This document shows, piece after piece, positions 6,732 through 52,307 of a stretch of DNA of 58,030 nt. The stretch is from assembly GCA_016180195.1 (NCBI GenBank), contig JACPBS010000009.1:1-58030 (forward strand). Reading direction: 5' to 3'. The notes beneath the pieces are model-generated. The model saw nothing but the letters and a program-made list of their open reading frames with translations. It had not been told where the DNA came from and searched no databases. Within the stretch, counting starts at the first letter, position 1. The number at the start of each line of letters is the position of its first letter. The stretch comes from Candidatus Woesearchaeota archaeon (lineage in GTDB: Archaea; Nanobdellota; Nanobdellia; Woesearchaeales; UBA10216). Position numbers and translations under genes: made by a program.

Positions 6732-6818
6732 AGCCCTGGAGGGGATTTGAACCCCCAACCTCCGCTTTACCCTTGGTTGATACGAGAGCGGCGCTCAACC
6801 AGGTTGAGCTACCAGGGC
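6732..6818 (-). tRNA. tRNA-Thr(CGT) with a short intron
   Basis: The acceptor stem GCCCTGG/CCAGGGC closes perfectly. The D-arm is GCTC...GAGC, the anticodon stem CCGCT/AGCGG, and the T-arm has GGTTCAAAT. The anticodon loop plus insert is 20 bases; a canonical archaeal intron after position 37 leaves C-T-CGT-A-A as the loop, so anticodon CGT and an intron of about 13 bases (exact edges uncertain). G1:C72, C2:G71 and T73 fit archaeal tRNA-Thr identity. CCA is not encoded. The 5' end lies only one base after the stop codon of the upstream zinc-ribbon gene. Confidence 0.88.
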
Positions 6819-51814: not shown

Positions 51815-51925
51815 GCCAAGCAAAAAAGCGTCCAACCATTGTTATTGTTGGCACAATCAAAGAAAACAGGCAACGATTTTACTCATGCTGCGGAGATACT
51901 GGCTAGAGCGAAACATATAAAAAGT
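51810..51925. repeat. Dispersed 115-base repeat, copy B (before tRNA-Ser)
   Basis: It matches 13,291-13,406 without length difference; the first 58 bases are nearly identical and the rest related. It carries the same perfect TTTTTGC-CAA-GCAAAAA and CCAAC/GTTGG hairpins, and likewise leads straight into a TATA box. Conservation across the hairpins suggests it is kept by function, or was copied recently. Confidence 0.75.
51915..51924 (+). promoter_or_regulatory. TATA box before the tRNA-Ser repeats
   Basis: The sequence atataaaaag would start transcription near 51,940, just before the first 55-base repeat. If so the primary transcript carries both repeat hairpins ahead of tRNA-Ser. Confidence 0.45.
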
Positions 51926-51948
51926 ATCGGGCAGTTTTTGCGTCAATA

Positions 51949-52058
51949 CCGGGATCGCATACAAATCACTAACGTGATTGTCTGCGTCGAAGGCATCCAC
52001 ATGCCGGGATCGCATACAAATCACTAACGTGATCGTCTGCGTCGAAAGCACTTACGTG
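51949..52058 (+). repeat. Two 55-base direct repeats beginning with the tRNA 5' end
   Basis: Units at 51,949-52,003 and 52,004-52,058 each begin ccgggatcgcat, which is the start of the tRNA-Ser that follows exactly in phase at 52,059. Each holds a hairpin AATCAC-TAAC-GTGATT (second unit: GTGATC) flanked by CGCA/TGCG. A few substitutions separate the units, so they are not a fresh copy. Confidence 0.85.
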
Positions 52059-52141
52059 CCGGGATCGCATAACCTGGTATTGCGCAAGCCTTGAGAGCTT
52101 GTTCCCGAAAGGGTATGGGGGTTCAAATCCCTCTCCCGGCG
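52058..52141 (+). tRNA. tRNA-Ser(TGA)
   Basis: Acceptor GCCGGGA/TCCCGGC is perfect. The anticodon stem-loop is CAAGC-CTTGAGA-GCTTG with anticodon TGA, and there is the extra variable arm of class II tRNAs (CCC-GAAA-GGG). The T-arm has GGTTCAAAT and G73 is the discriminator, as expected for serine. The D stem is weak (GCAT...TTGC, three pairs). CCA is not encoded. Its first 13 bases recur in the two upstream repeats, its last 13 bases 71 bases downstream. Confidence 0.92.
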
Positions 52142-52213
52142 TTCAGGGGCTTTACGCCCCTCACCTTTGATGAAGCTTTAGAAAAGCTTCGTGAGAACCA
52201 CCTCTCCCGGCGT
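52130..52213 (+). repeat. Copy of the tRNA 3' end downstream, with hairpins between
   Basis: The 13 bases cctctcccggcgt at 52,130-52,142, over the tRNA 3' end, recur at 52,201-52,213. Between them are hairpins AGGGGC-TTTAC-GCCCCT (52,145-52,161) and GAAGCTTT-AGA-AAAGCTTC (52,172-52,190) with flanking CTCAC/GTGAG. With the upstream copies this gives a mirrored arrangement: extra 5' ends before, extra 3' end after. Confidence 0.8.
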
Positions 52214-52215
52214 AC

Positions 52216-52243
52216 GTTGGGCTAAACACCCGTTTAGCCCGAC
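52216..52243 (+). terminator. Strong 12-pair hairpin
   Basis: GTTGGGCTAAAC-ACCC-GTTTAGCCCGAC folds back with nine perfect pairs plus three more outside (one T-G). It is not directly followed by a T run, so it may be an RNA domain or processing signal rather than a terminator. Confidence 0.4.
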
Positions 52244-52307
52244 CCATTTCGCTGCAGCCTTTAAAAAAAGAAAATTTTATATCCCCTTTATATCCTGAAA
52301 TAAGGAT

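Follow-up and report, generated by a model that had tools for sequence, protein, structure and literature searches.

tRNA-Ser nested between displaced copies of its own ends in a woesearchaeal genome, and a family of small hairpin elements beside tRNA genes

In Caldiarchaeum subterraneum, the tRNA-Thr(GGU) gene features a 1.8-kb recombinase-encoding insert, a stranded 5' fragment (nt 1–27) and an extra intron, and insertion was put forward as a link between tRNA fragments and the gain of introns (Sugahara et al. 2012, PMC3293823). Integrative elements of the pNOB8 type and PYG1, which are kilobase-sized and carry integrase genes, are flanked by partial or complete tRNA copies in the form of direct repeats. 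Casposons target tRNA 3' ends and generate a target duplication of approximately 14 bp (PMC6977970).

We analysed a 58,030-nt stretch of a Candidatus Woesearchaeota genome (hereafter, the window), in which an intact tRNA-Ser lies between copies of its own 5' and 3' ends. As in Caldiarchaeum, a 5' tRNA fragment is stranded upstream of a complete tRNA; as in pNOB8-type and PYG1 insertions, the insert lies between direct repeats that consist of partial tRNA copies. In contrast to the single tRNA and the long recombinase element of Caldiarchaeum, the inserts described here are non-coding, approximately 60 bp long, and occur at both ends of many tRNAs throughout the order. Unlike the pNOB8-type elements, they have no genes, feature conserved hairpins and are found at many targets, including protein genes. 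They resemble MITEs and REP-type elements in being short, non-coding, hairpin-forming, multi-copy and conserved in structure, but differ from them in gene-end targeting, in that no terminal inverted repeat was seen by eye, and in that a Y1 transposase is absent from the window genome. The features of the locus are the following:

51914–51923, plus strand: TATA-like box CATATAAAAA, the probable native tRNA promoter, 5' of the first displaced copy
51949–51961, plus strand: displaced copy 1, tRNA nt 2–14 (CCGGGATCGCATA), an exact repeat
51961–51986, plus strand: hairpin insert 1 (ACAAATCAC-TAAC-GTGATTGT, then CTGCG), from sequence and fold, with the second tRNA-Ser compared
51987–52002, plus strand: copy of the tRNA leader (TCGAAGGCATCCACAT), similar to ACGAAGGCATAAAGAT immediately 5' of the tRNA-Ser of genome G001
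52003–52016, plus strand: displaced copy 2, tRNA nt 1–14 (GCCGGGATCGCATA), an exact repeat
52016–52041, plus strand: hairpin insert 2, from the identity of the two units
52042–52057, plus strand: leader adjoining the mature tRNA (TCGAAAGCACTTACGT)
52058–52141, plus strand: intact tRNA-Ser(UGA) (Rfam RF00005, 53.6 bits)
52142–52192, minus strand: antisense hairpin A/hairpin B element, B beside the tRNA and A toward the displaced 3' copy (models R3 and R1)
52201–52213, plus strand: displaced copy of the tRNA 3' end (CCTCTCCCGGCGT), an exact 13-nt repeat, 71 bp past the tRNA
52213–52276, minus strand: second antisense element, older, with a decayed A hairpin, adjoining the displaced 3' copy (model R1)

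Both Rfam and ARAGORN call the tRNA-Ser(TGA) at 52058–52141, and an Rfam search of the region at gathering and E-value thresholds returned nothing besides the tRNA. Upstream, two 55-bp units are arranged in direct tandem (51946–52000 and 52001–52055) and are 89% identical to each other. The initial annotation had described copies of the tRNA 5' end in both units, in phase with the tRNA itself, and this is correct: CCGGGATCGCATA is present in each, and the copies span nt 2–14 in the first unit, in which A replaces G1, and nt 1–14 in the second. The 13-base copy of the 3' end reported downstream is likewise exact, and the hairpins noted on each flank are borne out by the fold of the 315-nt strand, which is better than that of shuffled sequences (z = -5.1). 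The sequence CGAAACATATAAAAA is common to the tRNA-Ser genes of the window and of G001, which are 94% identical; in G001, no unit separates it from the tRNA, which begins approximately 25 nt further on.

The neighbouring Kae1/TsaD gene finds its nearest named relatives mostly in Candidatus Woesearchaeota MAGs, at 71% identity or less. A tRNA-Ser is also located directly beside Kae1 in genome G004 (L016, G004:C32), in an orientation unlike that of the window. A second tRNA of the window (6732–6818, minus strand) has an insertion in the anticodon region and is found by Rfam and missed by ARAGORN; many tRNAs of the window genome carry introns that defeat ordinary tRNA finders.

The sequence between a displaced copy and its tRNA often belongs to one family. 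A typical element spans approximately 60 bp and consists of hairpin A (8 bp), an A-rich linker (ATCAAAA...TCAAG) and hairpin B (7 bp). In the window genome, hairpin A is GCAACCTT...AAGGTTGC, the linker is ATCGAAATTRTTTAAG and hairpin B is TTGGGC...GCCCAA, and the A side faces the displaced fragment while the B side faces the intact tRNA. Inserts range from approximately 50 to 190 bp, and are too short to encode an integrase. Since BLAST with one element retrieved two copies only, a covariance model was needed. Model R1, built from eight elements of the window genome, gave 11 matches at E <= 0.0135 in this 1.23-Mb genome, all 11 beside tRNAs; eight of these are its own training copies, and two are located downstream of the window tRNA-Ser. 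Model R3, built from elements of several genomes, found matches in 123 of the 353 genomes of the order at E <= 0.001. In a control set of archaeal DNA (437 kb), which includes some members of the order, no R3 match exceeded 16.7 bits. Both hairpins covary in relatives, as evidenced by double-sided changes in 10 of the 15 R3 pairs (23 such cells versus 7.4 in shuffled alignments, 0/500).

Neither element downstream of the window tRNA-Ser was in the training set of R1 or R3. The element at 52141–52192 is the top R3 match in the window (32 bits, E 2.2e-5) and is also recognised by R1 (22.8 bits, E 6.4e-4), and the element at 52213–52276 scores 28.8 bits with R1 (E 2.1e-5) and only 8.9 bits with R3. 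The two upstream units, which represent a tRNA-Ser type also present in genomes G008 and G021, are matched by neither model, and their inclusion in the same family is therefore a supposition, resting on their architecture and on other tRNA-Ser units. A model of tRNA-Ser units (R2) yielded no consensus structure and was left unused. A box C/D or k-turn motif in the downstream hairpin was dropped by eye, the geometry being one base off and not kept elsewhere.

The same arrangement was found at many tRNAs of five related genomes. Probes were 12-mers from tRNA ends, and tRNAs were sampled by searches and sequence stretches. Displaced 5' copies are present upstream of 8 of the 119 tRNAs and displaced 3' copies downstream of 11, and 17 tRNAs feature side-specific end copies; the same probes gave 0 and 0 on the wrong side of the 119 tRNAs, and a swapped-probe control gave 0.8% and 0.5%. 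The displaced copies exceed chance. The arrangement is widespread but patchy among related genomes, and units are absent at orthologous tRNAs; the G001 tRNA-Ser, for instance, has none. In the window genome, a second tRNA-Ser (G000:C5:38172-38244) has one similar upstream unit, in which both stem arms have changed together, and a third (G000:C10:118815) has a 22-nt displaced 5' copy. Further displaced 5' copies are found in this genome at tRNAs Arg-TCT, Cys and Glu-CTC, and further displaced 3' copies at tRNAs Arg-TCG, Leu and two others. At most of the affected tRNAs, copies are confined to a single side. In the sequences, as read by eye, the exact repeat stops on the 5' side at nt 11–15, in the D-loop, in most cases, and on the 3' side extends 12–20 nt inward from the tRNA end, to the T-loop.

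Upstream units of tRNA-Ser genes from at least three genera have GATCGCATACA-hairpin-GTC in common. For G021 and G008, 8–11 of 12 positions of the outer arm complement the displaced end. Downstream units of G021 (L047, L051, L059 and L071) form long hairpins, the 5' arm of which is the reverse complement of the 3' end of their own tRNA at 9–11 of 12 positions, and simple target duplication does not explain this tRNA-specific arm. G128 features a perfect tandem array of at least three 97-bp units (L171, G128:C7:199648-199910), and the tRNA 3' end is copied in every one of them. In G073 (L314, L316 and L266), bare elements in tandem directly follow the mature tRNA 3' end, with no displaced copies. 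Two elements of G004 and several of G073, G183 and G122 adjoin intact tRNA ends without any copy.

Direct repeats with a score of at least 12 flank 36 of 73 elements; they are 12–45 bp long (median, 18 bp). The corresponding null, obtained by pairing flanks of different genomes, is 0.9%, and a distal control gave 0/68. Part of the first 53 elements helped to build the models, and repeats flank 6 of the 20 elements of the second set. The elements without a flanking repeat, about half of the total, are introns, decayed copies or copies abutting a mature tRNA end. At the tRNAs with a flanking repeat, tRNA-end copies surround the insert and the tRNA is intact. Most transposases generate target duplications of fixed length. 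The variable repeat length counts against a transposition reading, as do the elements that have no flanking repeat or copy, and it sets the family apart from casposons, in which the duplication is fixed at about 14 bp.

Elements obey a mirror rule. In the window genome, comparison of upstream with downstream elements favoured the reverse complement in 19 of 20 pairs and the forward strand in none, whereas same-side pairs were forward in 16 of 16. According to our own classification from sequences and tRNA strands, units of other genomes that feature a displaced copy lie in sense at the tRNA 5' end (9/9) and in antisense at the tRNA 3' end (10/10). The short hairpin cores of G021 and G008 are not decisive (12 reverse complement and 7 forward out of 25). 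A common RNA function would predict the same strand at both ends, and the mirrored orientation thus counts against it. The rule may instead reflect the acceptor stem, which makes both tRNA ends read alike on opposite strands, such that 3' elements would be inverted relative to 5' elements.

The element is not confined to gene flanks. As judged by eye, it is located inside tRNA genes in the D-loop (L280 and L319), the anticodon region (L284 and L183) and the T-loop (L170, L290 and L320), inside 16S rRNA genes (L295, L296 and L299; three genomes, two sites), where it is intron-like, and near RNase P RNA genes (L317 and L329). Some elements thus interrupt a structured RNA gene, and those of the window do not. 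These positions are those of archaeal BHB introns, but, unlike such introns, the same element also occurs outside genes next to duplicated ends. Displaced 5' units share their junction with putative D-loop introns, and displaced 3' units share theirs with putative antisense T-loop introns, which suggests one insertion process with two outcomes, in which the end is either restored or the interruption is kept as a putative intron. Protein genes feature the element beside a duplicate of their own end or start (L172, secY; L286, L1-like; L287, L37e-like; L332; L325). For secY, both the gene and its stranded piece contain MDMNPMLRKFMGG, and in the L37e-like gene the start is duplicated. T-loop introns with a common 3' border (TGAAAG/TC) and a hairpin (L030, L032, L033, L034 and G000:C5:38172-38244) apparently constitute a separate intron family.

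Three readings of the locus had been offered at the outset: guided processing, a tRNA-like regulator, and traces of repeated integration at the tRNA. The last one fits, because the elements recur at many tRNAs and at other genes with gene-end duplications, lie in mirror orientation at opposite ends, and are missing from orthologous tRNAs. We consider it probable that the nest was formed by several successive insertions of small, non-coding, non-autonomous mobile hairpin elements that duplicate gene ends. An element would insert near the end of a conserved gene, duplicating approximately the last 12–25 bp and sometimes the leader or trailer as well. The B side would then carry the restored gene, and the old end would remain stranded by the A side. 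In the case of a tRNA, what is stranded would reach from the 5' end to the D-loop, or from the T-loop to the 3' end. Tandem amplification would afterwards multiply the units. If the end is left unrestored, the element would stay inside the gene, and BHB splicing would presumably have to remove it.

The history of the window can be read along these lines. The presumed native promoter CATATAAAAA and the leader match the G001 order of TATA box, leader of about 16 nt and tRNA. On the 5' side, a hairpin of approximately 25 bp plus a duplicated leader and tRNA nt 1–14 would have come between promoter and tRNA twice, leaving the oldest 5' copy beside the old promoter. On the 3' side, an antisense element would have entered and stranded the old 3' end at 52201, with an older decayed element beyond.

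That the units function as RNA, in the form of tRNA-like leaders and trailers through which processing is guided, or tRNA-Ser regulated via decoy acceptor stems, appears unlikely. The strong fold speaks for it: in the minimum-energy fold of the 315-nt strand, the outermost CCGGGA pairs with the outermost UCCCGG, and a decoy acceptor stem is a possible fold here. Covarying hairpins could also mean RNA function, and the motif common to tRNA-Ser upstream units and the complementary outer arm of G021 and G008 are in keeping with it. As a general function, the decoy stem fails because most affected tRNAs have one-sided copies, because 3'-side elements are inverted, and because similar units are found at secY and ribosomal-protein genes. 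In addition, orthologous tRNAs carry units patchily, and the element also occurs within tRNAs and 16S rRNA. A need for units guiding special processing is unlikely, as the archaeal RNase P RNA (RF00373) is present in the genome and the units are not required to replace RNase P.

Less probable still is that the copies are attachment-site scars of larger integrase-bearing elements, since excised or decayed. Archaeal genomes commonly contain partial tRNA copies that stem from integrating elements (PMC9897764); in Caldiarchaeum, a recombinase element is accompanied by a 5' fragment of tRNA-Thr (PMC3293823). The inserts described here, however, are all short, lack coding capacity and have a conserved two-hairpin core, and they affect many different tRNAs per genome, as well as 16S rRNA and protein genes. 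A simple tandem duplication of tRNA ends, or slippage, with no mobile element involved would suit the perfectly spaced tandem units of the window (55 bp, twice) and of G128, but is highly improbable, as slippage cannot import the one family found between copies across tRNA types, genomes and gene classes.

For the insertion of mobile hairpins, the mover would most likely be a recombinase acting in trans, although this is a guess. Cas1 (PF01867) is absent from seven of the eight high-copy genomes (G000, G073, G083, G231, G290, G071 and G337) and present in G183. Y1 transposase (PF01797) is absent from six of the eight (G000, G073, G083, G231, G290 and G071) and present in G183, G337 and two low-copy genomes. 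It is therefore unlikely that a resident casposase or IS200/605 transposase is the mover. Casposons, moreover, need a Cas1-family casposase and terminal inverted repeats, whereas hairpins A and B differ here. By eye, the A and B ends showed no inverted repeat. No autonomous partner was found, and two pattern searches of viral contigs gave chance matches only.

More tentatively, the elements may represent an undescribed class of mobile hairpins, active throughout the order, that insert into conserved RNA and protein genes and are a direct source of tRNA and rRNA introns, the outcome being a harmless flank where the end is duplicated and a spliced intron otherwise. This wider proposal is possible rather than probable; no matching report was found in open-access papers. 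For annotators, the data are a warning that ARAGORN misses many tRNAs of the order and that tRNA fragments flank real tRNAs. The origin and spread of archaeal tRNA introns is a long-standing question, on which there is little direct sequence evidence. In many related genomes, one and the same small element is found both at intron positions within tRNA genes and just outside them, next to stranded ends, and the birth of introns, the capture of promoters at tRNA genes and a possible new insertion enzyme become testable.
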